Source: Acidobacteriota bacterium
GTDB lineage: Bacteria; Acidobacteriota; UBA6911; JACOSC01
Direction: 5' to 3'
Length of the DNA stretch: 64,000 bases
Assembly: GCA_016179055.1 (NCBI GenBank)
Contig: JACOSC010000025.1
Span: 1 to 64,000, forward strand
The notes beneath the pieces are model-generated. The model was given only the letters and a program-made list of their open reading frames with translations, had not been told where the DNA came from and ran no database searches. Both the position numbers and the translations under genes were made by a program. The stretch's first letter is position 1. Each line of letters begins with the position of its first letter. Of the stretch, positions 4,391-47,038 are shown piece by piece.

Positions 4391-5179
4391 ATGACGGAAA
4401 AAATGATCGAATATCAAGTGGACAACGGCGTCGGCATTATGGCGCTTAACCGGCCGAAGGCCAACGCCTACACTCTGGAAATGCTGAAGGAGCTGGATGA
4501 GGCGATCCTCGCCGCTCGGCTCGATGAAAACGTCCATGTCATCGTGTTACGCGGCAAAGGCGAGAAGTTCTTTTCGGCCGGCGCCGATATTGAAATGTTG
4601 ACGAGCCACTCCACTTCCTACCGTTATTACTTTTCCTTGTATGGCCATGAAACTCTGACCCGCCTGGAGAATACGCCGAAGCTGGTGATTGCAGCGCTCA
4701 ACGGGCACACGGTGGGCGGAGGATTGGAAATCGCGCTGGCGTGCGACATAAGGATCGCCAAACGCGATGGCGGTCGCTTGGGGCTGGCCGAAGTCAATCT
4801 GGGAGTGCTGCCAGGCATGGGCGGCACACAGCGGCTGCCGCGTTGGATCGGCCGCGCCCAGGCCTTGGAAATGGCCGCCACTGGACGGCAGCTTTCTTTT
4901 GAAGAAGCCCACGAGCTGGGTCTCGTCAATCACATTTATGAATCGGAAAATTTCTTTGAACAAGTTTTGGATTATGCCCGACAGTTTGTGCCGCCCAATA
5001 AAGCAAGTTTTGCCGTGGGGCGAATAAAGCGGGCCATTCATGCCGGATTGGATGGGTCCCTGAGCGAAGGGTTGGCCCTCGAGCGCGAGGTCCTGCTGGA
5101 AGCTTTTCTCAGCGAAGATGCCGCGGAAGGGCTCGCTGCCAACCGCACACGGCGGACGCCGCAGTTTAAGGGCCGCTAA
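4391..5179 (+). CDS. Enoyl-CoA hydratase/isomerase (crotonase) family protein
   Basis: LNRPKANAYTLEML, KFFSAGADIEML, ALNGHTVGGGLEIALACDIRIA. Confidence 0.92.
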   Translation: MTEKMIEYQVDNGVGIMALNRPKANAYTLEMLKELDEAILAARLDENVHVIVLRGKGEKFFSAGADIEMLTSHSTSYRYYFSLYGHETLTRLENTPKLVIAALNGHTVGGGLEIALACDIRIAKRDGGRLGLAEVNLGVLPGMGGTQRLPRWIGRAQALEMAATGRQLSFEEAHELGLVNHIYESENFFEQVLDYARQFVPPNKASFAVGRIKRAIHAGLDGSLSEGLALEREVLLEAFLSEDAAEGLAANRTRRTPQFKGR

Positions 5180-5237
5180 TCGGATATTTTCGGGCGAAGG
5201 TGCCCTTGGCTCGGCCATAGTATTGGAGGATTTGCTC

Positions 5238-6338
5238 ATGACAAGAGTGGCGACATTCGACGATTGGAAAGATATGTTTCGCCAATGGGAGAAGGAGATT
5301 GATCTCGACGTTTCCAAGTTTAAGGATTATGAATTCGAGATTAAATTTGAACCGACGGAGTGCGAGGAGATTGAGTTCGGCGATTTCAAGGGCCGTAAGA
5401 AATGGGAAACCGTCCTGCAGATTCCGGATCAGCGCATTCGTGACGGTCTGCAACACTTGATTGTCTATCAGGGCGATACCGAATTCGGCTCCGTTGAGCA
5501 ACAACGCCGGCTTTTGCGCCATCCTCCTAACGATTACGATTTAGGCAGCCTGGTGCGGGTCATGCGTGAAGAGATGCGTCACGGGTGGCAGATGTGCTAC
5601 TTGCTCGTCAATTATTTCGGGCACTCCGGCAAGATTGAGGCGCAAAAGCTGCTTGAGCGCCGGTCGTTCAAAAAGACGCGGTTGCTCGGCTCCTTTAACC
5701 AGTCCATCGATACCTGGCTGGATTTCTTCTGCTTCACGCAGTTCGTCGACCGTGATGGCAAGTATCAATTGGGCATGCTGCACCATTCCGGTTTCGGACC
5801 CTTGGCCCGCAGCATGGGTCCCATGCGCAAGGAAGAATTCTACCACGTGCTGACCGGCCACACGGGCCTTGCGCGTATTATCAAAGCCGGTCGAGTTCCG
5901 CGTGATCTCTTACAAAGATTTGTCAACAAGTGGTACCCTTCGGCGCTGGACTTGTTCGGGGTCGATAACTCTACCTCGGCCGCTTGGTTCTATGTGTGGG
6001 GCCTGAAGGGGCGCTATGATGAGCATCCGGATCTGCCGCCGGCCGATCGGGAAAATCTTAACGATGAGGCTCGACATCATTACATGCAGGAGATGCGCGC
6101 GCTTTTTGCCGATCTCAACCAACGATTGCCGGCCGACCAGTCGCCCTTGCGGTTGCCGGAGGAAAAGTTTAACCGCAAGATGGGCCGCTATGCTGATATG
6201 GCCTTTGATGTGAACGGCGAGCCGCTGGCCGCCGCCGACTATATGGCCTACCTGGCGAGTGTATTGCCGGGCCCCGAAGACTATCGCCGGCTGGAAGAGA
6301 TCTGTAAAGACAAAGACTGGATCGTGGCCGTTTCCTAG
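5238..6338 (+). CDS. Ferritin-like diiron oxygenase, BoxB/PaaA (phenylacetic acid catabolic) family-like
   Basis: Two ExxH motifs (MREEMRHGWQMCYLLVNYFGHSG; MGPMRKEEFYHVLTGHTG); WLDFFCFTQFVDRDGKYQL resembles BoxB. Confidence 0.8.
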   Translation: MTRVATFDDWKDMFRQWEKEIDLDVSKFKDYEFEIKFEPTECEEIEFGDFKGRKKWETVLQIPDQRIRDGLQHLIVYQGDTEFGSVEQQRRLLRHPPNDYDLGSLVRVMREEMRHGWQMCYLLVNYFGHSGKIEAQKLLERRSFKKTRLLGSFNQSIDTWLDFFCFTQFVDRDGKYQLGMLHHSGFGPLARSMGPMRKEEFYHVLTGHTGLARIIKAGRVPRDLLQRFVNKWYPSALDLFGVDNSTSAAWFYVWGLKGRYDEHPDLPPADRENLNDEARHHYMQEMRALFADLNQRLPADQSPLRLPEEKFNRKMGRYADMAFDVNGEPLAAADYMAYLASVLPGPEDYRRLEEICKDKDWIVAVS

Positions 6339-6461
6339 GTGAAGAGATTGCCGATCATATTTTTAGAAATAACGTTTTTGCAATGGCCCATGCGAAGTTT
6401 TTTTGGAGAGGCGCGGTTTTGAAGTTCAAACGCGTAATGGTCGTACGGGAGCGATAATTCT

Positions 6462-6794
6462 GTGGCGAAGGTTTCACACATACTAGTTTGCCAAAATGTG
6501 GATTGCCGGGTGCGAGGGTCCGACCAGGTTATGAAGGCACTTTCCCTCCAACTGGCCGAGAAAGGGCGCCGAGATATCACCGTCAAATCCTATATGTGCT
6601 TTGGCGCTTGCCAGGCCGGCCCCAATATGGTTTTTTATCCCGAGCGAACTTGGTATGCCGGCGTACGGCTCAGCGACGTTGACGCCATTGTCGATCACGT
6701 TATGGGTGGCCCGAAAGTAGAAGCCCTCGAGGGCAAAGTCGATCCAGCGCTGCGCGAGCTGATCTACCAGTTATTGGATGCCGGCTTGTTCTGA
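6462..6794 (+). CDS. Thioredoxin-like [2Fe-2S] ferredoxin (NuoE-like)
   Basis: HILVCQNVDCRVRGSDQVMKAL...SYMCFGACQAGPNMVFYPERTWYAGVRLSDVDAIVDHV. Confidence 0.87.
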   Translation: MAKVSHILVCQNVDCRVRGSDQVMKALSLQLAEKGRRDITVKSYMCFGACQAGPNMVFYPERTWYAGVRLSDVDAIVDHVMGGPKVEALEGKVDPALRELIYQLLDAGLF

Positions 6795-6888
6795 AGCAGG
6801 CCATCCGCGTACGGCTTTGGTGGGTCTTCCAGTCTTACCGCCAAAGCAGCGCAACGACGAACTGGCTGTTGATGGCCGGTCGCGCAAT

Positions 6889-7095
6889 GAATTATGGTAA
6901 CTGTTCACGGGGATCGGGGGTCAGGGATCAAGGGCCAAGGGCACAGTGGTACCGATGTCTGTTGGGAATTATCATGATTTAGCGATTGGGTGGTGGGGCG
7001 GATGCTTAACGGATTGCGGGAGTCTTTGGAAAAGAAATCCAAGTATTATCGACCGATCCCCGATCCCTGACCCCCGTGAACAGTAACGAATTATG
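6889..7095. mobile_element. MITE-like element with 8-bp target duplication, between the NuoE-like and NuoF-like genes
   Basis: GAATTATG (6889-6896) / element 6897-7087 with ends GTAACTGTTCACGGGG...CCCCGTGAACAGTAAC / GAATTATG (7088-7095). Confidence 0.85.
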
Positions 7096-8355
7096 CAGAC
7101 CATTTTGTTTCCAGAGGATTTGATCAAAGGCGAAGAGACGTTCGATGCCTATATCAATCGAGAAGGCTACTGCACGTTGCGCGCGTTGGCCGCGCAAGCT
7201 CAGCCGGAGACCTTGATTGAAGAGATTGCGCGGGCCGGTCTGCGCGGACGAGGTGGCGCCGGCTTTCCTACGGCCAAGAAATGGTCTGTGGCGCGCCAGA
7301 CGGAAGTATTCCCGCGCTACCTGGTCGGCAATGGGGGCGAAGATGAGCCCGGCAGCCTTAAGGATCGTCGGCTTATGGAAGCGCGCCCACACTTGATATT
7401 GGAAGGCGCTCTGCTAGCCGCCCTGGCCATTGGCGCGGAAAAAGTCATTTTGTATGTGAATCACATGTTCGACCATGCCGCGACGCGACTGCAGACAGCC
7501 GTAGATGAAGCGCGCGCCGCAGGCTACTTGGGAGCCTCTATCCTCGGAGGCCGCTATTGCATCGAAGTCGAAATCTGCAAGGCGCCGAGCAACTATGTCG
7601 CGGGTGAAGATACCGCGGCGCTGGAAGTCATCGAGGGACGCCCGCCGTTGCCGCGACAAAAACCTCCTTACCCGGCCGTGCAAGGATTGTATGGCAAACC
7701 CACGGTGGTAAACAATGTCGAAACCCTGGCCAATGTTCCGGTGATTGCGCGCATGGGTGCGGAAGCCTATCGTCGCATCGGCGCCGCCGACAGCCCCGGC
7801 ACCATGCTTTTCAGTTTGGGAGCAGAGGTCCGTAGGCCCGGGGTTTATGAGCTGCCTTTCGGCACACCGCTGCGTCATTTAATTTTCGCATGCGGGGGCG
7901 GTTTAAGCAACGGGAGCGCAATTAAAGCCATTCTTCCCGGCGGGCCATCGACCGCTTTCCTGACGCCGGATCATCTGGATACCGCCCTTGATCACGCGTC
8001 ATTAGCCGACGCCGGCTCGGCTATCGGCTGTGGCGTCGTGAGCTTGTTTGATGTTGGCGCCTGCATGGTGGAAGAAACTCTGGCGCTGGCGCAATTCTTT
8101 GCCCGCGAATCTTGCGGCCAATGCCCGGCGTGCCGTATGGAGACGGCGATGCTGGCGACGCTTATCGAGCGCGTGCAAAATGGGGCGCCGCCGGTTATCC
8201 TGGATCAGATTGACAAGGTGCTCGATTTTAATCGGGGCAAAGGGTATTGTGCGCTGGTCAACATGCCGGGTCCTCCGCTACGTAGCGCCGTGCGGTGGTT
8301 CGGCGCGGACTTTGATCACCATCTCAGACACGGGACTTGTCCGATAAGGCCGTGA
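7093..8355 (+). CDS. NuoF-like NADH:FMN oxidoreductase (SLBB and 4Fe-4S domains)
   Basis: GLRGRGGAGFPTAKKW, GNGGEDEPGSLKDR, ESCGQCPACRMET with distal GYCAL cysteine. Confidence 0.9.
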   Translation: MQTILFPEDLIKGEETFDAYINREGYCTLRALAAQAQPETLIEEIARAGLRGRGGAGFPTAKKWSVARQTEVFPRYLVGNGGEDEPGSLKDRRLMEARPHLILEGALLAALAIGAEKVILYVNHMFDHAATRLQTAVDEARAAGYLGASILGGRYCIEVEICKAPSNYVAGEDTAALEVIEGRPPLPRQKPPYPAVQGLYGKPTVVNNVETLANVPVIARMGAEAYRRIGAADSPGTMLFSLGAEVRRPGVYELPFGTPLRHLIFACGGGLSNGSAIKAILPGGPSTAFLTPDHLDTALDHASLADAGSAIGCGVVSLFDVGACMVEETLALAQFFARESCGQCPACRMETAMLATLIERVQNGAPPVILDQIDKVLDFNRGKGYCALVNMPGPPLRSAVRWFGADFDHHLRHGTCPIRP

Positions 8356-8406
8356 AAGCCCGGAACAAGCTCGTGCGGGTTAGTATCTGACAAGATGAAA
8401 TTGTGC

Positions 8407-8470
8407 TGAAACGGGTCAAATATTTTTTGAAGGTAGCCTTCCACGCTTTATTCATGCGGGTATTTGACAG
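8407..8470. repeat. Dispersed repeat copy (related to 14982-15004 and 60556-60610)
   Basis: ctgaaacgggtcaaatattttttgaag...ctttattcatgcgggtatttgac. Confidence 0.6.
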
Positions 8471-8540
8471 TTTTCCAGCGTCACTAACCTTTTGAATTTT
8501 ACCGGGTTTGTTTACGCTCGTCCAGGTTAGGGCTGGTCAT

Positions 8541-9323
8541 TACCCAAGCTATTGCGCTAAACCGAAGGCTGGATAAACCGGCCGCGTAGCGGCCGCATGA
8601 CTTTAGCCGTGCCTTTCAAGGCACGGTAGGTCTGGCGGCGGAAAGCTCTTTCGTCCCGACGCTGTCGGGACGGTTGAACCGCATCCACCGGGTAGAAATT
8701 ATGGCTAATACGTATACTTCACTCCACTACCACATCGTCTTCAGCACCAAAAATCGTATTGGTTACCTAAAACCGGAGAGCCAACACCGAGTCTGGGCTT
8801 ACCTCGGCGGGGTCGCGCGCGAACACCAGATGACGGCTTTACAGGTAGGTGGTAGCGATGATCATATTCACGCTTTGGTTATGGCGCCAGCCACGCGGGC
8901 TCCTAGTCAGATCGCGCAATACCTCAAAGGCGATTCTTCCAAATGGATTCACCAAGAGTTTCCCGAGTGGCGCGGTTTCGGCTGGCAAGACGGATATAGC
9001 GCCTTTACCGTGAGTCAATCAAACGTTCCCGAGGTTATACGCTACATTCAGAATCAGCGAGAGCATCATCACCAGAAGACCTTTCAGGAAGAGTATGTGG
9101 AATTCCTGAAAAAACACGGGATCTCCTACGACGAGCGTTATGTATGGGGCTGAATTTTCCAAGGCGTCCTAGAACGCCATTATCGCCTGAATCAATCGTC
9201 GCTGACGCGACGGGGGCCAGCGGCGGGCCCATCGGATCCGTGCCCTAAAGGACACGGCTAAAGTCAACGGGCCGCTACGCGGCCGGTTCATACAGCCTTC
9301 GAGTCATTGCCATAGTCTGGGTA
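8541..9323. mobile_element. IS200-like/RAYT-like element flanked by long imperfect inverted repeats with internal hairpins
   Basis: Left arm 8541-8690 (ccgaaggctggataaaccggccgcgtagcggccgcatgactttagccgtg...) pairs with right arm 9180-9323 (...cacggctaaagtcaacgggccgctacgcggccggttcatacagccttcg). Confidence 0.8.
8701..9153 (+). CDS. IS200/IS605-type Y1 transposase, possibly REP-associated
   Basis: SLHYHIVFSTKNR, HUH-type DDHIHALV, RYIQNQREHH. Confidence 0.92.
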   Translation: MANTYTSLHYHIVFSTKNRIGYLKPESQHRVWAYLGGVAREHQMTALQVGGSDDHIHALVMAPATRAPSQIAQYLKGDSSKWIHQEFPEWRGFGWQDGYSAFTVSQSNVPEVIRYIQNQREHHHQKTFQEEYVEFLKKHGISYDERYVWG

Positions 9324-9452
9324 AGGACAAGGCGGACGAGTGGGGCAATTACGTGGCCGATCAGCGAACCTGTCTCCGATGGGTTACCGCGATTTATTGA
9401 GAGCCTACTACTTTTACATGTTTGGTTCCGGCTCGTGCCGGTTAGGATGTTT

Positions 9453-32509: not shown

Positions 32510-33367
32510 GTGGGATGGAGAACCGAATGGAATGCGATATCAAATCAGATTCAGGGTCTCTTAGAGGCAGGTCGTTTCTATGTAAGTTGTCTATCTACTG
32601 ATAATAAAGATCCTCACGAGATTGCAAGAAGGGAAGTGCTGCCGCAGACCGATCGAATGTTTGAATCACTCAGAAAGTTTTATGAAATTTACCAGGCTAA
32701 CCTGCCTACCCCTGCGGCTGCATGTTTGAATAGATTTCTCGAAAATAAGGAAAAGTGGGATAAAATATCTGTGCATCTCGTTATGCAGGGGCTTCCCGCT
32801 GTTCAAGCACGCTTAACAGCTCTTAGTTCGTTTGGGTCTGAATTCACGTACCAAATTTCGGATTGGTCCGCAGTGGCAAGACGCCTATCTGAGCGCGCAT
32901 TTTTACATTTACAACGAAGCATTGTGGCTGATTCGAGTATACGGGAACGTTGGAAGAGCGCATTTGAAGAGGGAGAGCTGGCCTGCGAAAAGCTTGGTGG
33001 CGCTCATCTGCTGCTTCATGGTATTTGGGCTTTCAAAGTTAATGCCGAGCGCGAACGGACGGACCTCGTTTTATCTAATCAGTTGACTGATCTCTCCGAA
33101 GTCGAGAGAACCGCTGAAGCCTTGGTCCTAACGGAATGGAAGATTGTTCGTGAGGAAAATGAAGTAGGCGCCAAGATCAAAGAGGCTCACAGACAAGCCG
33201 CTCGCTATGCTTTCGGTGCTCTGGCGGGTATTGAGCTAGCAAGCTACCATTACTTGGTCATGGTAACTGAGCGGGTGCTCCAAATGCGGGGTTCTTGGAT
33301 CGAAGACGGTGTAACCTACCAGTGTATCAATGTTGCCGTCGATCCAAAAACGCCTTCGGGTAGATGA
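32510..33367 (+). CDS. Hypothetical protein, possible PD-(D/E)XK nuclease-like fold
   Basis: GTG start after a GAGGAG SD; TDLVLSNQLTDL...EALVLTEWKIV resembles a D...ExK pattern. Confidence 0.55.
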   Translation: MGWRTEWNAISNQIQGLLEAGRFYVSCLSTDNKDPHEIARREVLPQTDRMFESLRKFYEIYQANLPTPAAACLNRFLENKEKWDKISVHLVMQGLPAVQARLTALSSFGSEFTYQISDWSAVARRLSERAFLHLQRSIVADSSIRERWKSAFEEGELACEKLGGAHLLLHGIWAFKVNAERERTDLVLSNQLTDLSEVERTAEALVLTEWKIVREENEVGAKIKEAHRQAARYAFGALAGIELASYHYLVMVTERVLQMRGSWIEDGVTYQCINVAVDPKTPSGR

Positions 33368-33467: not shown

Positions 33468-35456
33468 ATGCCCGACCATAACTACTTCGCAAACCTGATA
33501 TGGCAGATCGCCGATCTGCTGCGCGGCCCGTACCGGCCGCCGCAATACGAGCGCGTCATGCTGCCGATGACCGTACTGCGCCGGTTCGACTGCGTGCTGG
33601 CGCCGACGAAGGCCGAGGTCCTGGCGGAGCATGAGAAGCGGAAAGGCGGGAGGCTGGAAGGCGACGCCCTCGACAAGAAGCTCAGCGAGAAGGCCGGCCA
33701 GCGTTTCCACAACCACTCGCCGCTCGACTTTGAGAAGCTCAAGGGCGATCCCGACAACATCGAGAAGCATCTAGTCAGCTACATCAAGGGCTTCTCGGCG
33801 AACGTGCGCGGCATCTTCGAATTCTTCGAGTTCGAGAACGAGATCGAGCGGATGCGCGAGGCGAACATCCTCTACCTCGTCGTTTCCAAGTTGTGCGACG
33901 TGGACCTGCACCCGAGCACGGTCCCCAACGAGCAGATGGGGCTGATCTTCGAGAACCTCATTCGCCGCTTCAACGAGCTGGCCAACGAGACCGCGGGCGA
34001 CCACTTCACGCCGCGCGAAGTCATACGGCTCATGGTGAATGTCCTGTTCATCAATGACGACAAGCTGCTCGCCACGGCGGGCACCGTGCGCAAGCTCCTC
34101 GACCCGGCCTGCGGCACCGGCGGCATGCTGGCGGAGGCGCAGAACTACCTGCGCGAGCACCACGGGGAGGCGAGGCTCTTCGTCTACGGGCAGGACTACA
34201 ACAAGCGCGCCTTCGCCACGGCCGCCTCCGACATGCTCATGAAGCAGGTGGACCATAACGGTGGTGGCGACAATGTGCGATTTGGCGACAGTTTCACCGA
34301 CGACCAGTTCGCAGCCGAGACCTTCGACTACCTGCTCACCAACCCGCCGTTCGGCGTGGATTGGAAGAAGCAACTAAACGAGATCAAGAAAGAACACGAC
34401 CAGCGCGGCTTCGATGGCCGTTTCGGCGCTGGGCTCCCGCGGGTCAACGACGGCTCGCTGCTCTTCCTGCAGCACATGATCAGCAAGTTCGAGCCCGTGC
34501 GCCCGGCGGAGCACAAGCACGGCTCGCGCCTTGCTATTGTTTTCAGCGGATCGCCGCTCTTCACCGGCGGCGCGGGCTCGGGCGAGAGCGACATCCGCAA
34601 GTGGATCATCGAGAACGACTGGCTCGAGGCGATCATCGCCCTGCCGGAGCAAATGTTCTACAACACCGGCATCGGCACCTACGTCTGGATTCTCACCAAC
34701 CGCAAGGAGAAGCGCCGCAAGGGCGAGATCCAGCTCCTCGATGCCCGCGAGTTCTACGTCCCCATGCACCGGAGTCTCGGGGACAAGCGCCGGAAAATCG
34801 GCGAGAAGGAAGACGGGCGCGACCAGATCGCCGAGATCGTGCAGATCTATGGCCGCTTCTCCGACGGCGATACTTCGAAGATTTTCGACAACGCCGATTT
34901 CGGTTACACCCGCGTCACCGTCGAGCGGCCGCTGCGCCTGCGCTACCAGATGACCACTGAGGACAAGACCCGCTTCCTCGATGGCTGCCCACATCTGCTC
35001 GATGATGTGCAGGCCATCGACAAAGCCCTGGGGCGCGAGCCGCAACGCGACTGGAACGCCGTGTGGACGCGCATCGAGGATCTGCTGCATGAGCGGAAGT
35101 CCCGCTGGAAGGCGCCCGAGCAGAAGCTCTTCCGCGGCATCTTCACACAAAGGGATCCCGATGCCAAGCCGGTCACGAAAGGCAGTCGCGACGAGGACTA
35201 TGAGCCCGACACCGACCTGCGTGACTTCGAGAACGTGCCGCTCAAGGACGACATTGATGCCTACTTCGAGCGCGAGGTGCGGCCCCACATGCCTGATGCC
35301 TGGATGGACCGATCCAAGGACAAGGTGGGCTACGAGATCAACTTCAACCGCCACTTTTACAGGCACACGCCCCCGCGCCCGCTGGAAGAGATCGATGCGG
35401 ACCTGAAGCAGGCCGAGGAGGAGATTATGCGGTTACTGCGGGAGGTGACAACGTGA
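33468..35456 (+). CDS. hsdM: Type I restriction-modification DNA methyltransferase (M) subunit
   Basis: GDHFTPREVIRLMV, LLDPACGTGGMLAEA, LLTNPPFGVDW. Confidence 0.95.
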   Translation: MPDHNYFANLIWQIADLLRGPYRPPQYERVMLPMTVLRRFDCVLAPTKAEVLAEHEKRKGGRLEGDALDKKLSEKAGQRFHNHSPLDFEKLKGDPDNIEKHLVSYIKGFSANVRGIFEFFEFENEIERMREANILYLVVSKLCDVDLHPSTVPNEQMGLIFENLIRRFNELANETAGDHFTPREVIRLMVNVLFINDDKLLATAGTVRKLLDPACGTGGMLAEAQNYLREHHGEARLFVYGQDYNKRAFATAASDMLMKQVDHNGGGDNVRFGDSFTDDQFAAETFDYLLTNPPFGVDWKKQLNEIKKEHDQRGFDGRFGAGLPRVNDGSLLFLQHMISKFEPVRPAEHKHGSRLAIVFSGSPLFTGGAGSGESDIRKWIIENDWLEAIIALPEQMFYNTGIGTYVWILTNRKEKRRKGEIQLLDAREFYVPMHRSLGDKRRKIGEKEDGRDQIAEIVQIYGRFSDGDTSKIFDNADFGYTRVTVERPLRLRYQMTTEDKTRFLDGCPHLLDDVQAIDKALGREPQRDWNAVWTRIEDLLHERKSRWKAPEQKLFRGIFTQRDPDAKPVTKGSRDEDYEPDTDLRDFENVPLKDDIDAYFEREVRPHMPDAWMDRSKDKVGYEINFNRHFYRHTPPRPLEEIDADLKQAEEEIMRLLREVTT

Positions 35457-36733
35457 GCGCATCAGCAGGCCGCGAGCAGCAGCGACTGAAGTATGTCGCC
35501 TCGATCAATACTGAGACCCTCACTGAGGAGACTAGCCCCGACTACGAGATGCGGTACGTGGATATCGGCAACGTTGATTCCTCAGGCGTTATCCATGAGA
35601 TCGCCACATACCGCTTTGACGACGCGCCGAGCAGAGCCCGACGCGTGGTCCGCGATGGGGACGTCATTATTTCCACGGTTCGCACGTATTTGCAGGCGAT
35701 TGCTCCTATCCAAGAGTCTCCCGAAAACCTAATCGTCTCTACGGGCTTCGCGGTGGTCCGCCCGCAGGCAAGCGTGTTCGATCCAGGTTTCTGCAAGTAC
35801 GCACTGCGCGAGCCGGCCTTCCTCGCGGAAGTGGAAATGCGCTCAGCGGGTGTGAGCTACCCCGCTATCAACGCTTCCGATCTTGGTGACATCCCCATCC
35901 ACCTGCCGACGCTGCAACAGCAGCGGGCTGTAGCGGGCTACCTCGACCGGGAGACGGCGCGGCTGGATGCGCTGGTGGCGGCGAAGGAGCGGCTGTTCGG
36001 GCTGCTGGCTGAGAAGCGCCGGGCGCTCATCACCCGCGCCGTCACCCGCGGCCTCGACGCCCGCGCCCCTCTCCGCGACTCCGGCATCCCCTGGCTCGGC
36101 GAGATTCCGGTGCATTGGGAGACGAAGAGGCTCAAGCACTTTGCTACGATTTACTACGGACTAAGCCAACCACCGGAATACGTGCCGTGTGGCGTCCCGT
36201 TCTTACGCGCGACGAACGTAAAGCGCGGAGAGCTGTTCAAGGATGGGCTCGTATACGTTGACGAAGCTGATTTGCCTGAATCAAGAGTCGTGCGACTTCG
36301 CTCTGGCGACATTATCGTGGTGCGAAGCGGAGCGTATACAGGAGACTCCGCTATCGTCACCGAAGAATGGGGCGGAGCTGTAGCTGGTTACGACATGGTG
36401 GTTCGGATGGCCCGGGCTGCTGAGCCCGAGTACATATCGTTGGCTCTCCTGTGTCAGTATGTGCTCGAGGCGCAAATCGATCCATTGCGTCTCCGAGCTG
36501 CGCAACCCCATCTGAATGCGGAAGAGCTCGGCAACATTCAGTTCGCCATACCTCTCCTGTCGGAGCAGAGAGACATCGTGGCATACGTCGGTGCCGAAAC
36601 TACCAAGCTCGACGCGCTCCGATCTGCCACCGAGCGCACCATCGCTCTACTCAAGGAGCGTCGGGCCGCCCTCATCGCCGCGGCAGTAACGGGGCAAATT
36701 GATGTGAAGGAGGTGATGGCAAATGCCCGCTAG
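35453..36733 (+). CDS. hsdS: Type I restriction-modification specificity (S) subunit
   Basis: ATGA-type overlap with hsdM; two TRD-like halves each followed by a coiled coil (LDALVAAKERLFGLLAEKRRALITRAVTRGL; LDALRSATERTIALLKERRAALIAAAVTGQID). Confidence 0.93.
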   Translation: MSASAGREQQRLKYVASINTETLTEETSPDYEMRYVDIGNVDSSGVIHEIATYRFDDAPSRARRVVRDGDVIISTVRTYLQAIAPIQESPENLIVSTGFAVVRPQASVFDPGFCKYALREPAFLAEVEMRSAGVSYPAINASDLGDIPIHLPTLQQQRAVAGYLDRETARLDALVAAKERLFGLLAEKRRALITRAVTRGLDARAPLRDSGIPWLGEIPVHWETKRLKHFATIYYGLSQPPEYVPCGVPFLRATNVKRGELFKDGLVYVDEADLPESRVVRLRSGDIIVVRSGAYTGDSAIVTEEWGGAVAGYDMVVRMARAAEPEYISLALLCQYVLEAQIDPLRLRAAQPHLNAEELGNIQFAIPLLSEQRDIVAYVGAETTKLDALRSATERTIALLKERRAALIAAAVTGQIDVKEVMANAR

Positions 36734-37904
36734 GGATAAGAAGAAGCCCGTCACGGCAGCCGTGCAGCCACAACTCCTCCGCTGGGCGAGGGAGCGCGTG
36801 CCCCTAACGACTGCCGCTCTCGCTAAGAAGGTCGGGCTCAAGGAGGAGCGGGTCATCGAGTGGGAAGCGACGGGCAAACTGACACTGGCGCAACTGGAGA
36901 AGGTCGCCGGCAAGACGTACACGCCCGTGGGGTATCTCTTCCTCCCCATACCGCCCCGGGAAGATCTGCCCATCGCCGATTTTCGCCGCGTGGCTGGCCA
37001 GCCAGTCGGCCGGCCAAGCCCCGACCTACTCGACACGATCTACGTGTGCCAGCAACGGCAGAACTGGTACCGAGAGCACCTGGTCGCGGAAGGAGAGAGG
37101 CCTCTGCCATTCGTCGGCAGCGCCAGGCTCACGGAGCAGCCGGCGATCGTGGCGGGGCGCATCCGGGCGGTGATCGGCCTCGATGACGCGTGGAGCGGGT
37201 CGGTCCGGAATACGAATGAAGCATTTCGCTCCCTGGTTGAGAAGGTGGAAGCAGCCTGCATTCTGGTGATACGGAACGGTGTGGTCGGCAATAACAACTA
37301 TCGCAAACTCAGCGTTTCGGAGTTCCGCGGCTTCGCGCTGTCTGACGAGTACGCGCCCCTCGTCTTCATTAATGCTGGCGACTGGCCCGCCGCGAAGATT
37401 TTCACCCTGGCACACGAACTCGGTCATATTTGGCTTGGGCACTCCGGCGTCTCCGACGCGGATATGGAATCGGACCACCAGGAAGAACACTTCTGCAACG
37501 AGGTGGCGGCGGAGGTGCTCGCGCCCATGGCCGAGTTTCGGGACGCCTGGCGCAAAACCGCCGATCCCTTGGATGAGGCGCGGCGGCTGGCCGATCTGTT
37601 CAAGGTGAGCATGCTGGTGGCGCTCATTCGCGCTCGGGCCGCTGGCCTTATCTCGCAGAAGAAGTTTGACGCCCTGTACGAGGCCGAGCGTGAAGGCTTT
37701 CCGCCCACGGAGAGTAAGACGGGTGAGAAAGGCGGGGGCGATTTTTACAGGACGCAGGGCAGCCGCCTGAGCAAGCGGTTCGCTCGCGCGGTGATCGTGA
37801 GCGCTCTCGAAGGGCGCACCACGTTCACAGAGGCGTTCCACCTGCTGGGGCTAAGGGAAGGAACGTTCGATGAATACGCTCGGAAACTGGGGGTCGTTCA
37901 CTGA
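36723..37904 (+). CDS. XRE-HTH plus ImmA/IrrE-family metallopeptidase
   Basis: TTAALAKKVGLKEERVIEWEATGKLTLAQLEKVAGKTYTPVGYLFL; HEXXH-type HELGHIWLGHSG. Confidence 0.92.
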   Translation: MPARDKKKPVTAAVQPQLLRWARERVPLTTAALAKKVGLKEERVIEWEATGKLTLAQLEKVAGKTYTPVGYLFLPIPPREDLPIADFRRVAGQPVGRPSPDLLDTIYVCQQRQNWYREHLVAEGERPLPFVGSARLTEQPAIVAGRIRAVIGLDDAWSGSVRNTNEAFRSLVEKVEAACILVIRNGVVGNNNYRKLSVSEFRGFALSDEYAPLVFINAGDWPAAKIFTLAHELGHIWLGHSGVSDADMESDHQEEHFCNEVAAEVLAPMAEFRDAWRKTADPLDEARRLADLFKVSMLVALIRARAAGLISQKKFDALYEAEREGFPPTESKTGEKGGGDFYRTQGSRLSKRFARAVIVSALEGRTTFTEAFHLLGLREGTFDEYARKLGVVH

Positions 37905-38401
37905 TGGCCTACCTGCTTGATGCTGACGTGTTCATATCGGCGAAGCGGCATCATTATCGCTTCATCGTCTGCCCGGGATTCTGGGAGTGGTTGCTCCATG
38001 CGAACGGACGCGGGAGGGTCTTCAGCATCGACAAGGTTCAGCGTGAGTTAAAAAATGGAACGGACGAACTTGCGGCTTGGGCTGAGGAGCAGTCAACGTC
38101 ATTCTTCCTTGAGGGGGACGCCCAGGTTATCGAGGCGGCGGAGAGGGTGAGCGCGTGGGCGCACCAGCAGCATTACGAGCCGCAGGCCATCTCGGAGTTC
38201 TTCAGGTCCGCGGATTACTGGCTTGTCGCGCACGCGATATCGAGGGGATGGAAAGTGATCACGCACGAAGTCTCGGCCCCCGAATCGAAGAAGAAGATCA
38301 AGCTGCCCGACGCCTGCGCCGCGGTCGGGGTAGCGACCACGAGTCCGTTTCAGATGTTGGAAGACGAGGGGGCGCGGTTTGTCCTGGGGGTGCGATTATG
38401 A
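37904..38401 (+). CDS. DUF4411 family PIN-like protein
   Basis: MAYLLDADVFISAKRHHYRF, FSIDKVQRELKNG, SADYWLVAHAISRGWKVITHE, KIKLPDAC. Confidence 0.88.
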   Translation: MAYLLDADVFISAKRHHYRFIVCPGFWEWLLHANGRGRVFSIDKVQRELKNGTDELAAWAEEQSTSFFLEGDAQVIEAAERVSAWAHQQHYEPQAISEFFRSADYWLVAHAISRGWKVITHEVSAPESKKKIKLPDACAAVGVATTSPFQMLEDEGARFVLGVRL

Positions 38402-41400
38402 CACAAACGAACGAAGCGGCCTTCGAGACCGTCATTGAAGCCCATTTCCTCGCCAACGGCTACGTGTGGGTGAGTCGGGACGGATTCGACCGCGAACGGG
38501 CGATCTTCCCCGAAGTCGTCCTCGATTTCATCCGTCAGACCCAGCCGAAGGAGTGGGCCAAGTTGGAGGCGCTGCATGGGGACAAGACCGGCGAACAGAT
38601 TCTCGGCGACCTGTGTAAGTGGATGGATGCCAATGGCTCGATCGCGACGCTGCGCCACGGCTTCAAGTGCTACGGACGGACGCTGCACGCAGCCTACTTC
38701 AAGGCGGCGCACGAGCTGAACCCGGAGCTTGAGGCGCGTTACGCCGCGAACCGTCTAGGGATCACCCGGCAGCTTCACTTCTCGTCGCGCTCGGAGAAAT
38801 CTCTCGATGTCACGCTGAGCCTGAATGGCATCCCCGTCGCCACGCTGGAGCTGAAGAACCCGCTCACGGGGCAGACCGCCGAGGACGCGCGCCGGCAGTA
38901 CAAGCAGGACCGCGACCCGCGCGAGCCGATCTTCGAGTTCAAGCGCCGCACGCTGGTGCACTTCTCCGTGGACACCGAAGCGGTGCTGATGACTACGCGC
39001 CTCGCAGGCACGGCCACTCACTTCCTGCCGTTCGACAAGGGCTGCGGGGGCGGCGCGGGCAACCCGCCGGACCCGGCGGGACGCACCTACCGCACGGCCT
39101 ATCTCTGGGAGGAAGCGCTGCAGCGGGACAGCCTGCTCGATCTCCTGGCCAGATTCATTCATATTCAGATGGAAGAGAAGCGCGCGGAAGACGGACGAAA
39201 GGTTAAGACCGAAACAATGATTTTCCCCCGTTATCACCAGCTCCAGGCCGTGCGTATGCTGGTGGAGGCGGCCCGCCGCGAGGGCGTGGGAAACAACTAT
39301 CTCGTCGAGCACTCGGCCGGCAGCGGCAAGAGCAACACGATCGGCTGGCTGGCGCACAGGTTGGCGTCGCTGCACGACGCCGCGAATCAGCGCGTATTCG
39401 ACAGCGTCATCGTGGTAACCGATCGGGTTGTGCTCGATCAGCAGTTGCAGGACACGATCTACCAGTTCGAACATAAACGCGGCGTGGTGCAGAAGATTGA
39501 CGAGAGTTCTCGGCAACTGGCGGAAGCGCTCGAGAACGCGGTGCCGGTGGTCATCACCACGTTGCAGAAGTTCCCATTCGTCTCGCGCCAGTTGCTCAAG
39601 ATGGCAGAGGAGCGCGGCGAGAGTGGTACCGGCACGCTGCCGACCCGCCGCTGCGCCGTGATCATCGACGAGGCGCACAGCTCGCAGGGCGGCGAGACCG
39701 CCACCGACCTCAAGGAGGTTCTGGGCGGCGAGGCGTTGCGGGAAGAGGCGAAGCTAAAGGCCTCCGATGAGGGTCAGGAGGACATGGAGGAACTCTTCCG
39801 CAGCATGGCCAAGCGCGGTCGGCAGGCGAACTTGAGCTTCTTCGCCTTCACGGCGACTCCCAAGCACAAGACCCTCGCCGTCTTCGGTCGCGACGGGCGG
39901 CCGGCCCACCGCTACACGATGCGCCAGGCAATCGAGGAGGAATTCATCCTTGATGTGCTGAAGCACTACACGACATACGCCGTTTACATCAAACTTCTCA
40001 AGGCATGCTCTGACGACCCAAACGTCGAGCGCAAGAAGGCGGCGAAGGCACTGGCGCGGTTCCTAAGGCTGCACCCGCACAACATCGCGCAGAAGACCGA
40101 GGTGATGGTCGAGCACTTCAACGCCGTCACTCGCCACAGGATTGGTGGCCGAGCCAAGGCGATGGTTGTAACGGGATCTCGACTCGAAGCGGTGCGCTAC
40201 AAGCAGAGCTTCGACCGGTACATTAAGGAGAAGGGCTATCCCATCAAGACTCTGGTCTCGTTCTCCGGTACAGTGCAGGACGACAAACTCTCCAATGTGA
40301 CCTACACGGAAGAGGGAATGAACCTCGGGATTCGCGAGAAGGAGTTGCCGGAGAAGTTCGCGACGCAGGAATACCATGTTCTTCTGGTGGCGGAGAAGTA
40401 CCAGACGGGCTTCGACCAACCGCTGTTGCACACGATGTATGTGGACAAGCGACTGGCGGGTATCCAAGCTGTACAGACCCTGTCGAGGCTGAACCGCACC
40501 CACCCGCTCAAGGAAGACACCTTCGTCCTCGACTTCGTGAACGACCGCGAGGAGATCCGCGAGGCGTTCAAGACGTACTACGAGGGCGCAGAAATGGGCG
40601 ACGAAGTCGACCCGGCGCGCATGTATCAGCTAAAGGGCGAGCTGGACACCTCGGGCATCTACCTGGCCGAAGAGCTCGAGCGGTTCTGCACGGTCTACTT
40701 CAAGCCCAAGCAGCGGCAGAGCGCCGCGGATCATCAGGCGATGAATGCGGCGCTGGATCCGGCGGTCTCGCGATTTACGGTGCGCCAGCGCGACGACGAG
40801 GACGAAGCGGAGTTGTGGCGGGGGAAGGTGCAGGCGTTCCGCAACCTGTACGGATTCCTCAGCCAGGTGATCCCATATCAGGACTCGGACCTCGAGCGGC
40901 TGTACGTGTTCCTCCGTCATCTGGCCGCGAAGTTGCCCCGGCGACGAAGCGGCCCGGCCTACCAGTTCGACGACGAGGTGCGGCTCGAGTACTACCGCCT
41001 GCAGAAGATCAGCGAGGGCTCGATCTCGCTGCAAGATGGCGATGCCCGACGCCTGGACGGTCCCACGGACGTCGGCAGCGGCCTCGTACGGTTGCAGCCT
41101 ATGCCGCTGTCGCAGTTGATCGACATCGTGAACGAACGGTTCGGGACGGACTTCAACCAGGCCGATCAACTCTTCTTCGATCAGATGGTCGAGGCCGCCA
41201 TGGACGACGATGGACTGCGGCAGGCGGCGGCGGTGAATCCGGGAGACAAGTTCGAGTTGCTGTTCAAGAATCTGCTCGAAAGTCTCTTTGTGGAGCGCAT
41301 GGATCAGAATGAGGAGATCTTCGTGCGCTTTATGAACGACCTGCCGTTCCAGAAGGTTGTAACGGCTTGGATGGCGTCAGAGGCCTACCGGCGGCTGCGG

Positions 41401-41943
41401 GCTTGCTCCGCCGATGCCGGCGCCGGCAGCGATCAACGGTCGGGAACGTCAAGGCTTCGCATCGTTCGGCCGCGTCCCGAGGAGTGCTACGTCACTTGCG
41501 TTCCGCTCATTCCGCTTGAGGCGGCGGCGGGCGCGTTCAGCGACCCGCAACTCGTCGAGAACAGTGACTGGGAGTGGGTTGCCATCAACCCGACCCGCAA
41601 GCTCCGTCCGGGGATGTTCGTCGCCCGGGTGGTCGGTAAGTCAATGGAACCGACTATTCCGGACGGTTCCTATTGCCTGTTCGCCACGCCCGTTACCGGC
41701 ACGCGGCAAGGGAAGATCGTGCTTGTCCAGCTCCACGATGCCGCCGACCCCGAAACGGGTGAACGCTACACCGTAAAGCGCTACGAGAGCGGGAAGGTCC
41801 CCATTGAGGGATCGTGGCGTCACGCCAAGATCATCCTGAAGCCGATCAACCCCGACTTCGCGCCGATCGAACTCAGTGGCGCAGAGGAGGGCCAGCTCCA
41901 GGTTATCGCCGAATGGCTCGTGGTCCTCGGTCGCGGCCAATGA
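38398..41943 (+). CDS. hsdR: Type I restriction enzyme R subunit with C-terminal LexA/S24-like peptidase domain
   Basis: VATLELKNPLTGQT (ExK), HSAGSGKSNTIGW, VIIDEAHSSQGG; C-terminal PLIPLEAAAGAFSD...GKSMEPTIPDGSYCLF...YTVKRY. ATG at 38398 overlaps the DUF4411 stop. Confidence 0.92.
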   Translation: MTQTNEAAFETVIEAHFLANGYVWVSRDGFDRERAIFPEVVLDFIRQTQPKEWAKLEALHGDKTGEQILGDLCKWMDANGSIATLRHGFKCYGRTLHAAYFKAAHELNPELEARYAANRLGITRQLHFSSRSEKSLDVTLSLNGIPVATLELKNPLTGQTAEDARRQYKQDRDPREPIFEFKRRTLVHFSVDTEAVLMTTRLAGTATHFLPFDKGCGGGAGNPPDPAGRTYRTAYLWEEALQRDSLLDLLARFIHIQMEEKRAEDGRKVKTETMIFPRYHQLQAVRMLVEAARREGVGNNYLVEHSAGSGKSNTIGWLAHRLASLHDAANQRVFDSVIVVTDRVVLDQQLQDTIYQFEHKRGVVQKIDESSRQLAEALENAVPVVITTLQKFPFVSRQLLKMAEERGESGTGTLPTRRCAVIIDEAHSSQGGETATDLKEVLGGEALREEAKLKASDEGQEDMEELFRSMAKRGRQANLSFFAFTATPKHKTLAVFGRDGRPAHRYTMRQAIEEEFILDVLKHYTTYAVYIKLLKACSDDPNVERKKAAKALARFLRLHPHNIAQKTEVMVEHFNAVTRHRIGGRAKAMVVTGSRLEAVRYKQSFDRYIKEKGYPIKTLVSFSGTVQDDKLSNVTYTEEGMNLGIREKELPEKFATQEYHVLLVAEKYQTGFDQPLLHTMYVDKRLAGIQAVQTLSRLNRTHPLKEDTFVLDFVNDREEIREAFKTYYEGAEMGDEVDPARMYQLKGELDTSGIYLAEELERFCTVYFKPKQRQSAADHQAMNAALDPAVSRFTVRQRDDEDEAELWRGKVQAFRNLYGFLSQVIPYQDSDLERLYVFLRHLAAKLPRRRSGPAYQFDDEVRLEYYRLQKISEGSISLQDGDARRLDGPTDVGSGLVRLQPMPLSQLIDIVNERFGTDFNQADQLFFDQMVEAAMDDDGLRQAAAVNPGDKFELLFKNLLESLFVERMDQNEEIFVRFMNDLPFQKVVTAWMASEAYRRLRACSADAGAGSDQRSGTSRLRIVRPRPEECYVTCVPLIPLEAAAGAFSDPQLVENSDWEWVAINPTRKLRPGMFVARVVGKSMEPTIPDGSYCLFATPVTGTRQGKIVLVQLHDAADPETGERYTVKRYESGKVPIEGSWRHAKIILKPINPDFAPIELSGAEEGQLQVIAEWLVVLGRGQ

Positions 41944-42420: not shown

Positions 42421-43116
42421 TTATTGTTGCCCTGGACGCAGACGTTGTATAAGCTCTTCCGCCATAGGAACTAGAAATGTCCTTAGCTCTTCCAGGCCGA
42501 GCGGCTTAATCATGCGCGGCAATTTGCGCAATTTTTGTACTCTGTGTAAGTTGGTCGCAAAGACAAGAGTACCGTCTTCGCCGTCGAACACCGCGTCCTT
42601 TTCACGCGCCCGACCGATCAGGTAGTCCAGTGTATAGCGCGACTCTTTAAGAATGAAAAAGAGGTCACAGTAGTCCTTCAGGTCTGGTGGTTCTCTGCCA
42701 TAGATCGCGCAGATTTTGTTTACGGCTATATCCTCGAAAGAGTCCATGACAATTCGTTCGTGTGTTTGGGGCTCATCCATCTGTGCGGCCACGTCTTTAA
42801 TAAACTCAAGCTTGAGCTGATTTTCTATCTGACCCTCCGGGTAGACAAAAAATCTTCCAAAGTCGGCGTCCGTCTCGGGCTGTTCATCGATAGTCAGTCC
42901 TACAGAGGCCAAAATCTCCTGGACTTTTCTGAAGTCTTTATCCAGCGGGTCCGGCTTCCGGGTAAAAAAGTCCAAGTCATCCGAATAGCGATGTTGCAGG
43001 TAGAACTCAGACAACGCGGTGCCGCCCGAAAGGAAATATCCTTCATCGCCGAATCCACGATCAAACAGGGCCATCAGCACTTTGCTTTGCAGATCGGTAA
43101 GAACTTTAAACGGCAT
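42421..43116 (-). CDS. AbiEii/AbiGii-type nucleotidyltransferase
   Basis: FLSGGTALSEFYLQHRYSDDLDFFTRK; start at MPFKVLTDLQSKVLMALFDRGFGDEG. Confidence 0.88.
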   Translation of the reverse strand: MPFKVLTDLQSKVLMALFDRGFGDEGYFLSGGTALSEFYLQHRYSDDLDFFTRKPDPLDKDFRKVQEILASVGLTIDEQPETDADFGRFFVYPEGQIENQLKLEFIKDVAAQMDEPQTHERIVMDSFEDIAVNKICAIYGREPPDLKDYCDLFFILKESRYTLDYLIGRAREKDAVFDGEDGTLVFATNLHRVQKLRKLPRMIKPLGLEELRTFLVPMAEELIQRLRPGQQ

Positions 43117-46100
43117 GTCGCCAGACCTCAAGCGCCGCTTCCAGCATCTTGCGCTTTTTTTCCGGAAGATCCACTTGCGGCAACGCTTCTTCAATATCTT
43201 CGACGGTCAGCCATCGCTTTGCATCTTTCCATGCGGCATATTTCAAAATCCGACCAATAGCCCAAATCCGCTGGTCGGAATTCTTGTCCTGAATGTACCG
43301 GCGCAGATCGTTTACGTCTTCATCATAGTCCCATACGATCTGACGGGAGACTTCTCCTTCTAGGCGATTCATCACTTCACGCAGCCAGTCACGCGCGCGC
43401 GGTGGCGTGGCGGGGTCCTGCAATACACGCTCAATCTCACGCTTGCGCCCTTCGTAAAACCGCGACATAGGCCCTTCAATGATCGTTTCCTCTTGCTCTA
43501 TGCCTGCAGTCAGCCGGCGGCGCAATATTTCGTCATTGGGGTACATCTCAACCAGCTTGAACGCCAGGGGCCAGAATCCGGGTTTGGCGCCGGTCAAGCC
43601 GTTAGCGACGGCGCGTGCAGACTCTTCGCCCTTCCTGGCAAAATCGAGCAGCAGGTTTCCGTCACTTTCTTGGTCAAGCAGACCTTTCAGATCAAAGAAA
43701 AGGGAGGTATCCGTTTGAGCAACGTTCAGAACCAACTCAATAAGACGTCCTCTGTTATTACGGTAAAGGATTTCCCAGAATTTATGGGTGTCATAGGGGT
43801 CTAGAGGGTTCCACTGCTTCTCCGAAATCTCGGACTGTTGGATAAGCTTTTCGAGAAACTTAAATCCGCGCTCCGTATCATCTTGCGCCAGACCGGCGGC
43901 CAATTGATCAAAGTGCCGACCGCTGGTTGATGACGCAACCGGTAGTTCGTGTTCCAGGCAACACCAGGCAAACTCGGCCAAGCTGCCTTTCAACGCATGA
44001 CCACCTTGTACCCAAAAAGCTAACTGGCGAACGGCAACCGCGGCATATTCAAAATACTCGCCGGCAATTACCTTTAGAAGCTGCTCGAGCTGATCTGCCA
44101 TATCGGCGCGAAATTCAAGGGTGTCTGCAACGTATTTCGGAGTAACCTGTTTATTCTGAATCAGAGTCTTAACACGTGTTACAGTCGTCGGACCTACGCC
44201 AAGCCAAGCGGTGGCTTGCACAATAGCCGCTCCAAAGGGAGCACCCGAATCGGTTAATTCGTCCAGACGCGCCTCTGCCGCTTCTCGGTCCCGCTGCGCC
44301 CAACCTTGCCAGTAGGCGGCAAAGGCGCGCACGCTCTCGGGCTCGGGTTGTGCGCCAAATTCCTCTATGCGGTTTTGATAGCTCAACTCTTTATCCGCGC
44401 TTCCAAGAAAGAAGAAAAAAGTGCTGGATTTCTGCGCGGATGGAGATACTAGCCATGCCACTAAATCAGCCGTTAGAAGGCTGGGTTCCTTAACCACATC
44501 ACAGGCTAGCGCTTTGAGCTCGTGCGCGAAACGCGGATGGTCATCAGCCAAGATACCGCCACTCATATCATTTCCTGCCCAGCGTTTCAATCGTATGGCG
44601 AAGCCTGCTTGCCCCAGACTGTCTTCTAACTGTTGCAAGCCGGTAATACATTGGCGAAACCTATTCTGCAGATCGGATGGTAGCGTTACTGCTCCTTGTT
44701 CAAGTTGTTTAGAAAGATGCTCTCGCATTAAGCGAAGCGCCCTAAGAAGTGACGCTATATCAAGGCCGGCCTTGTCGGAACGAGCCCATTCCACGAGTTT
44801 TTTAAACAGTTCCAATGCCTCCTGATCCTGGCCAGCGCGAATACCTAATTGTGCAGTTAACCACGGCAATTTATCAAGTGCCGCTTTCGCAACCTCATCA
44901 CTCTGGTTCGCGAGGCACATCAGAATATCCACCAGATTACAAGCATAGTCGTAAAAGTCATTGTACGTAAAGTCCGGCTTCCAGTCTAAGGGCTCTGAAC
45001 CGGTACTCTGGCGAGCGCGGAACCACTTGTCAACCCAAGCGGCGGCCACCGCTTTAACAACAACTAGCTTTCCTTCCTTTGAAGCCTTGTCCGAGATGAA
45101 TTCGTTAAGCAACTCGATCCGCTCACCAAGAGGAAGCGGCATCTGGGGATGGGACGGATGAAAACATTCGATCAGCACTCCGGTTGCATTATTAGCATAG
45201 GTTTCATTCTCAGCCTCTGCCAACAGCCATAACAGGCGGACAGATCTCCGACTCGTACTTGCGCGAAAGATCAACTGCTCAAGCGTCCTTACGAGTTCAC
45301 GGCGTTCGTTATCTGCGATCCCAAGTCGAGTTTCCCTGTTGCTGTTTAGTAAACCGGATTCGAGCAAGCGTACTGTGTAATCCGGTACAGTACCTGCAAC
45401 CAGCGTCAATAGTTTTGCATTTTTAAGGGCCGCCTGAAAATTCTCTAGTGGGCCGCTGTGTGTAGAAAATTCCTTCCAAAACCGTGCTACCTCATCTCCA
45501 GTTACGCCGCTAAGCCTTTTTAACAAACGAATACGTCCTGGCTCGTCCAGCCTTCCAAATAAGGCAAGCATCACTTGTTGCCGTCCTTGCAGAAGTTTTG
45601 AAACCAGAGAATTGGCGAGCATGGGAATGGTTATCGCGACAAAGGATCCTCCGCGTTTCGCCAATCCCGCCTTTTCGAGTTCTGGCAATTTTAAAAGCAC
45701 ATTATGCCGATCCCATCCTTCCCCAAACAATTCGCAAATGACGTTAAGTTCATTTTCAAAGGCTCCGGAAATCCCCACATGCGTCAGAAGCGAGAACAAC
45801 TGAGCACCGTGGAGCGCATCGGGACCGAGTTCTTTTTTGATCCGATCCTCGAATTCCTGCCCTACTTGCTCGGCGAAGTCCTCTGACGTGTCTCGCAATT
45901 TGTTTCCAACACTAGCAGCCACCAGGAGCACTCCCGGAACTCCACCGGCATTACGGATAATCCAATCCTCAATGGAAAAATCCAAAGGCCGGCCGGCAGC
46001 TCTCAGAAGCTTTCGGGCATTTTCTTCCGAGAGGGGCTGAAGATGTACAGACTGTACCCGTTCATCGCGCCCGTAAGACGGCGCGGGGGCGTTGGCTGAG

Positions 46101-47038
46101 GTGGGCAACGTTATGATTAGTTTTAAGGTCGGTAACGTCAGCGCCTCACTCACCAATAAATCAATCGATTCCGAATCCGGGTCCTCAACGATGCATAGGA
46201 TCTCGCCCTTATCCGAAACGAGCTGTCGGTAATCGTTCAGAGCCATGGAGCGCGGGTCAAGCGCCTGGACGACATAGTGGGGTCGGTGTCGAGTGGCTTC
46301 TAGAGCAAGACGGCTCTTTCCAACATCGTGCGGCCCAGTCAGAACTACCACGCGTACTCGCGGATCGTCAACCAACAATTTAAGACGATTAAGCTCGCCC
46401 TCCCGACCTGTGAGTTCGACATCTGCCCCATTATGCTTTTGACTTTGGTGTGCTTGGTAAGCCTCTTGCCAGGTCTTGAAAGATTCGCGAGTAAAGTAGG
46501 CGGCGCGTAGATGTGGATTGTCATTTAGAAGCACGGCTAATTCCGCTGCGCCCACGATTTCCACATGAACCATGGATGAATTCGCGTATCCATCCAAAAT
46601 GGCCTTTTTTATCGGAGGTTTGCCATCATGATTTAGATCTGCATTGACGAAGAGAACGTATCGGTCCGGGTGCCGTCCGTTTCTTTCAGTCAGATCCTTC
46701 ACAGCCCCTTTGAGCGACGATTTTAAATTAGAAATGACTGCTCGACGTCCATCGGCGATCAGGTCACGCTTCTTGTATTGAAACACATTCCAACCGGGAC
46801 CAAGAATCGGCGTTGGCAGCGCATGACCATCATCGGGAAGCACGATGTCCCACTCGGCGTCAATGCCTTTATCCTTCGCATTGACACGCGCAGTAAACGA
46901 AGGTAGCTTTGGGCAAGCCCGTCCCGATGCGGCCCAGGCCAGGGCATCGCACAGCGACGCAAATCGATCCGGGGGCCACTCGCTGGTCCACTGTTCCAGG
47001 TGGCGTCCAGTAATCGCTTGTCCAATCAATAAAGCCAT
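43106..47038 (-). CDS. Large nuclease-STAND-like NTPase (Avs-like architecture) with long helical C-terminus
   Basis: N-terminal DKGIDAEWDIVL...NVFQYKKRD (PD-(D/E)XK/Mrr-like), Walker A LTGPHDVGKSRLALEA, Walker B-like ILCIVEDPDS, about 900-aa alpha-rich remainder. Confidence 0.75.
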   Translation of the reverse strand: MALLIGQAITGRHLEQWTSEWPPDRFASLCDALAWAASGRACPKLPSFTARVNAKDKGIDAEWDIVLPDDGHALPTPILGPGWNVFQYKKRDLIADGRRAVISNLKSSLKGAVKDLTERNGRHPDRYVLFVNADLNHDGKPPIKKAILDGYANSSMVHVEIVGAAELAVLLNDNPHLRAAYFTRESFKTWQEAYQAHQSQKHNGADVELTGREGELNRLKLLVDDPRVRVVVLTGPHDVGKSRLALEATRHRPHYVVQALDPRSMALNDYRQLVSDKGEILCIVEDPDSESIDLLVSEALTLPTLKLIITLPTSANAPAPSYGRDERVQSVHLQPLSEENARKLLRAAGRPLDFSIEDWIIRNAGGVPGVLLVAASVGNKLRDTSEDFAEQVGQEFEDRIKKELGPDALHGAQLFSLLTHVGISGAFENELNVICELFGEGWDRHNVLLKLPELEKAGLAKRGGSFVAITIPMLANSLVSKLLQGRQQVMLALFGRLDEPGRIRLLKRLSGVTGDEVARFWKEFSTHSGPLENFQAALKNAKLLTLVAGTVPDYTVRLLESGLLNSNRETRLGIADNERRELVRTLEQLIFRASTSRRSVRLLWLLAEAENETYANNATGVLIECFHPSHPQMPLPLGERIELLNEFISDKASKEGKLVVVKAVAAAWVDKWFRARQSTGSEPLDWKPDFTYNDFYDYACNLVDILMCLANQSDEVAKAALDKLPWLTAQLGIRAGQDQEALELFKKLVEWARSDKAGLDIASLLRALRLMREHLSKQLEQGAVTLPSDLQNRFRQCITGLQQLEDSLGQAGFAIRLKRWAGNDMSGGILADDHPRFAHELKALACDVVKEPSLLTADLVAWLVSPSAQKSSTFFFFLGSADKELSYQNRIEEFGAQPEPESVRAFAAYWQGWAQRDREAAEARLDELTDSGAPFGAAIVQATAWLGVGPTTVTRVKTLIQNKQVTPKYVADTLEFRADMADQLEQLLKVIAGEYFEYAAVAVRQLAFWVQGGHALKGSLAEFAWCCLEHELPVASSTSGRHFDQLAAGLAQDDTERGFKFLEKLIQQSEISEKQWNPLDPYDTHKFWEILYRNNRGRLIELVLNVAQTDTSLFFDLKGLLDQESDGNLLLDFARKGEESARAVANGLTGAKPGFWPLAFKLVEMYPNDEILRRRLTAGIEQEETIIEGPMSRFYEGRKREIERVLQDPATPPRARDWLREVMNRLEGEVSRQIVWDYDEDVNDLRRYIQDKNSDQRIWAIGRILKYAAWKDAKRWLTVEDIEEALPQVDLPEKKRKMLEAALEVWRHAV

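Follow-up and report, generated by a model that had tools for sequence, protein, structure and literature searches.

The hsdS-hsdR gap of the type I restriction-modification (RM) operon described here is a cargo slot. In the 64,000-nt stretch of DNA that we analysed (the window), it is occupied by two genes that encode an XRE-ImmA protein and a DUF4411 protein and that probably form a toxin-antitoxin module. We think it rather likely that this pair serves as a toxin-based defence cassette that can be exchanged and is expressed together with the RM enzymes. The base for this reading is the gene order, the conserved residues, homology to PDB entry 9vzy, the polarity of gene decay, independent and recurrent embedding of the pair, and the swapping of cargo between closely related operons.

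The operon consists of five intact ORFs, all on the + strand, in the order hsdM-hsdS-XRE-ImmA-DUF4411-hsdR. The DNA methyltransferase subunit gene hsdM (33468..35456) matches Pfam N6_Mtase (184.5 bits) and HsdM_N (92 bits) and PADLOC MTase_I (873 bits), and the specificity subunit gene hsdS (35453..36733, GTG start) matches Pfam Methylase_S in two stretches and PADLOC Specificity_I at 314 bits. The XRE-ImmA gene (36723..37904) encodes a probable antitoxin with a predicted HTH and M78 metallopeptidase (Pfam Peptidase_M78, 60 bits against a cut-off of 22 bits), and the DUF4411 gene (37904..38401) a probable PIN-type nuclease toxin (Pfam DUF4411, 178 bits against a cut-off of 23.5 bits). The restriction subunit gene hsdR (38398..41943), whose product carries a C-terminal S24 domain, matches Pfam SWI2_SNF2, HSDR_N, T1R_D3-like and Peptidase_S24 (34 bits); its 200 bits against TIGR00348 lie under that model's cut-off. 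PADLOC assigned M, S and R of the window to a type I RM system, and two foreign genes lie between hsd genes, on the same strand, in an otherwise complete type I operon. Successive genes overlap by 4 nt (hsdM/hsdS), 11 nt (hsdS/XRE-ImmA), 1 nt (XRE-ImmA/DUF4411, TGATG) and 4 nt (DUF4411/hsdR, ATGA), and the five-gene order and junctions named in the preliminary description (35453/35456, 36723/36733, 37904, 38398/38401) proved exact by ORF coordinates. These overlaps suggest translational coupling across the operon and would fit a single transcript for hsdMSR and the pair. An internal promoter for the pair is unsupported, since the number of promoter-like sites was near expectation (3 vs. 1.8) and the sole + strand site lies inside DUF4411. 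GC content is 59-63% across the RM genes and cargo (61-62% for the RM operon), compared to 55% for the window; the RM operon may therefore have been acquired. This genome has a single DUF4411 gene and one further M78 gene.

Relatives of the two proteins have been solved together. XRE-ImmA aligned with 9vzy_A (annotated 'HTH cro/C1-type domain-containing protein'; E 6e-26, residues 14-358) and DUF4411 with 9vzy_D (E 1e-11) and with 9vzz_A, and the window proteins align nearly end to end with both molecules of 9vzy. Since 9vzy contains an HTH cro/C1-type protein and a DUF4411 family protein, a homologous pair is already available as a structure; 9vzz is likewise a DUF4411 protein, and the same two families are thus represented by sequences diverged from those of the window. 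A literature search found no paper describing 9vzy. The HTH part of XRE-ImmA has no Pfam match of its own, and its assignment therefore rests on the alignment with 9vzy_A. H231, E232, H235 and E255 are invariant among 28 aligned XRE-ImmA sequences, a pattern that we take to be that of zinc metallopeptidases (HExxH plus a downstream Glu). Similarly, four acidic residues of DUF4411 (D6, E48, D104 and E122) are invariant among 30 aligned sequences and presumably correspond to the PIN catalytic residues. The match of DUF4411 to Pfam PIN reached only E 0.058, and the PIN call is thus based on these residues and on the solved DUF4411 chain. An AlphaFold model of DUF4411, made from two sequences, was unusable (mean pLDDT 35), so that the predicted PIN fold likewise derives from homology and residues. 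XRE-ImmA scored up to 60 bits against the PADLOC RmrA models, which have no stated cut-off. No PADLOC model matched DUF4411 at E 0.1, a family that these models do not cover.

We also examined how consistently the two genes occur together. Of 396 genomes of the phylum searched with Pfam DUF4411, 42 contained it, and 40 loci besides the window were examined with their flanks. XRE-ImmA lies directly upstream of DUF4411 in 39 of the 40, the remaining one (L060) being at a contig end; this recurrence indicates that the pairing in the window is more than chance. Annotated plasmid records show XRE-ImmA followed by DUF4411 in 12 of 12 cases. These records come from Croceicoccus, Sphingomonas, Acetobacter, Gordonia, Pseudoalteromonas, Enterobacter, E. 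coli (among prophage genes), Leptospira, Arthrobacter, Komagataeibacter, Sinorhizobium and Caballeronia. The closest relative of the window pair is a free-standing one in a Planctomycetota MAG (L100; XRE-ImmA 65% and DUF4411 61% identical). A single-protein scan of genome contigs for DUF4411 gave one locus. Viral contigs held no relative of either protein, and phage records gave one weak DUF4411 match.

Loss of the two genes is polar. An XRE-ImmA protein search of the same 396 genomes, verified by tblastn, identified seven full-length XRE-ImmA genes whose DUF4411 partner is either absent (L080 and the second XRE-ImmA copy of L072) or damaged, by truncation in L070, L078 and L132, by a frameshift in L079 and by an internal deletion in L131. 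Conversely, no intact DUF4411 without an intact XRE-ImmA was seen in this survey or among the loci examined. This 7:0 polarity (sign test, p 0.016, with imperfect independence, as the cases come partly from draft contigs or related lineages) is as expected for an antitoxin (XRE-ImmA) and its toxin (DUF4411). Together with the homologous pair in one PDB entry and the near-invariable pairing, it supports the toxin-antitoxin assignment made in the preliminary description. Uniqueness to this contig would, according to that description, have refuted its reading; the arrangement is not unique, since embedding in RM operons recurs in other genomes.

Type I operons hold or abut the pair, on the same strand, in 10 of the 40 loci; the others are mostly free-standing. 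The order is M-S-[pair]-R in L042, L048 and L054, in L051, where a contig end cuts the operon, and in L072, which has extra genes. It is R-S-[pair]-M, sometimes with a further gene, in L062, L063 and L074, R-M-S-[pair] in L079 (the frameshifted case) and M-S-R-[pair] in L047. Random placement would give about 0.14 such loci, when 10 kb is granted to each of 61 HsdS loci (hand count, 36 genomes). Since this figure takes no account of the general tendency of defence genes to cluster, the excess indicates association and not a specific preference for RM operons. Other RM types are affected as well: the pair lies between type III Mod and Res genes in L065, and after an Eco57I-type methylase and before an SNF2/PLD helicase in L043. 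The Acetobacter vaccinii plasmid NZ_CP043507 has the order M-S-[ImmA-DUF4411]-Abi-R, and its HsdM is only 25% identical to that of the window over the aligned part. In a tree of 55 XRE-ImmA sequences (a quick tree with several long branches), there are 12 changes between the embedded and the free-standing state, and well supported branches force at least 7 of them. Shuffled labels gave a mean of 12.6, so the embedded state is no more clustered than random. The pair thus occurs outside RM operons too, and related RM operons without it exist. In L074, an 807 aa protein (6020-8443) is encoded between hsdS and the pair; it has no Pfam or PADLOC match and is a candidate for unknown cargo.

The exchange of cargo is best seen by following the RM core. 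A search of 297 genomes gave relatives of the window HsdM in 37, and we examined 20 of these loci, of which those with HsdM 71-87% identical to that of the window are referred to as close cores. Their S-R slot contains XRE-ImmA and DUF4411 in L042, L048 and L054, an orphan XRE-ImmA in L080, Septu PtuA/PtuB in L081 and L082, and an ATPase and HNH pair (Septu by annotation) in L113, on Ketogulonicigenium vulgare plasmid pYP1. The slot of L072 (operon strand 4656-9452) holds three cargos in tandem, namely HEC-01A/B, a distant XRE-ImmA/DUF4411 pair and an orphan XRE-ImmA; here and in L080 an XRE-ImmA gene without DUF4411 stands directly before hsdR. In L051 the pair accompanies an HsdR 81% identical to that of the window, with HsdM off the contig. 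No empty S-R slot was found among close-core operons. More distant operons either have a slot without cargo (L083, L084, L114) or carry GmrSD-like, AbiE, RhuM, SIR2 or Fic-like genes between S and R or between M and S. In the core tree, Septu-bearing L081 groups with L080, which has XRE-ImmA only (97/98), and both join DUF4411-bearing L054 (95/96). As these cores fall together despite their differing slots, cargo has been swapped between close cores. The core-adjacent XRE-ImmA proteins are 45-48% identical to that of the window, compared to 79-87% for the cores themselves. Whatever the cargo, its junctions with the operon are mostly 1-4 nt stop-start overlaps.

In the explanation that we favour, a two-gene toxin-antitoxin cassette would occupy the hsdS-hsdR slot and be transcribed together with hsdMSR. 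XRE-ImmA would bind DUF4411 and keep it inactive, perhaps with a role for its protease domain, until phage infection. DUF4411, as a predicted PIN-fold nuclease and most likely an RNase, would when freed attack an RNA target and arrest growth. The cassette would then be an exchangeable second layer of defence, probably of the abortive-infection type, that moves with the RM operon and is triggered by phage rather than by operon loss. Our literature search found no published demonstration of phage protection by a DUF4411/XRE-ImmA pair.

The main rival of this explanation is addiction, in which the selected role of the same pair would be to kill cells that lose the RM operon or its mobile element. 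The pair is frequent on plasmids, near relaxase, partition and other toxin-antitoxin genes, and the GC content of the RM operon is in keeping with acquisition. However, near-identical cores hold Septu or HEC-01 in the slot, neither known as an addiction module, and loss of the toxin often leaves antitoxin and RM operon in place (L080, L079). Since Septu and HEC-01 can take the place of the pair in this slot, we favour defence cargo over an RM-specific addiction device and regard addiction as unlikely. A more exciting but less likely possibility is that the pair guards the RM enzyme: XRE-ImmA would sense that HsdR or HsdM is blocked, for example by anti-restriction proteins of a phage, and then release DUF4411, converting failed restriction into abortive infection. 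If true, this would explain why the pair has turned up again and again between the modification and the restriction genes of RM systems of different types, as it has in type I operons of two gene orders, in the type III locus L065 and between the Eco57I-type methylase and SNF2/PLD helicase of L043. Against it, most pairs are free-standing with no adjacent RM genes, and the far lower identity of the XRE-ImmA proteins than of the cores beside them gives no sign of co-evolution; we therefore consider a guard function improbable. Finally, the chief role of XRE-ImmA might be to regulate the RM operon, with DUF4411 as an accessory nuclease and no toxin-antitoxin pair at all. The orphan XRE-ImmA genes retained before hsdR in L080 and L072 would fit such a role, yet XRE-ImmA lies in mid-operon and not at its head, the pairs that stand free on plasmids and in a prophage lack an RM operon that they could control, and intact DUF4411 is never seen without XRE-ImmA, all of which makes this reading very improbable.

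The S24 domain of HsdR (residues about 1068-1171, encoded at about 41599-41910) has the Ser and Lys motifs GKSMEP and YTVKRYE. The preliminary description had counted it, beside XRE-ImmA, as one of two separate protease modules of the operon. Among eight close HsdR homologues compared, S24 is present in six and cleanly absent from L042, which has the pair, and from L081, which has Septu, and L080 combines an S24-bearing HsdR with an operon lacking DUF4411. Because L042 has the pair without S24 and L080 has S24 without DUF4411, the two vary independently, and we rejected S24 and ImmA as a single double-protease device.

Defence genes embedded in type I operons have been published. DarTG2 lies between hsdS and hsdR in the RRDM island of E. 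coli, a site that the authors suggest is a recombination hotspot (PMC12255303). It is a toxin-antitoxin system in the hsdS-hsdR slot, as the window pair probably is, but its toxin, a DNA ADP-ribosyltransferase, and its antitoxin are unrelated to the window proteins, and the RptR repressor stands at the head of that island. TgvAB, embedded in a Vibrio type I operon (PMC11411939), and the Hma-embedded candidates (HEC, PADLOC) also place defence genes inside another defence operon, although these are nuclease or ATPase systems and not an XRE-ImmA/PIN pair; HEC-01 itself occupies the S-R slot of the close relative L072. RosmerTA (RmrA/RmrT) and NetFlax node D25, an ImmA antitoxin node predicted with PIN-like partners (PMC10440598), combine an HTH-ImmA metallopeptidase antitoxin with a small toxin gene, as the window pair probably does. 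In contrast to RosmerTA, no PADLOC toxin model matches DUF4411, so that a known RmrT is absent beside XRE-ImmA; the tested Kita RmrT depolarises membranes (PMC10440598). A survey of Pseudomonas syringae listed DUF4411 among VapBC toxin domains (PMC8790059). The invariant acidic residues of DUF4411 are presumably of the PIN type found in VapBC toxins, but the candidate antitoxin here is a 393 aa XRE-ImmA (M78) protein and not a small VapB. In the open literature, where DUF4411 is seldom mentioned (preprints and most subscription papers were outside this scope), we came across no description of DUF4411/XRE-ImmA as cargo of RM operons. With this pair, the defence genes known inside type I RM operons gain a recurrent cargo of probable toxin-antitoxin type. 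The close cores also form a natural series in which the RM enzymes are almost alike and the slot contents differ, antitoxin-only versions included. With this series one can test whether embedded cargos act independently of, or jointly with, the host RM system.

Genes flanking the operon in the window were also noted. Before hsdM, a 285 aa ORF (32510-33367, + strand) has a GC content of 48%, far under the 61-62% of the RM operon, and no match in Pfam, NCBIfam or PADLOC. Just downstream of hsdR, on the opposite strand, an AbiEii-type nucleotidyltransferase gene (42421-43194, - strand) overlaps a gene (43106-47038, - strand) for a 1310 aa ATPase weakly similar to PD-Lambda-4_A, and the two are possibly a second defence pair.
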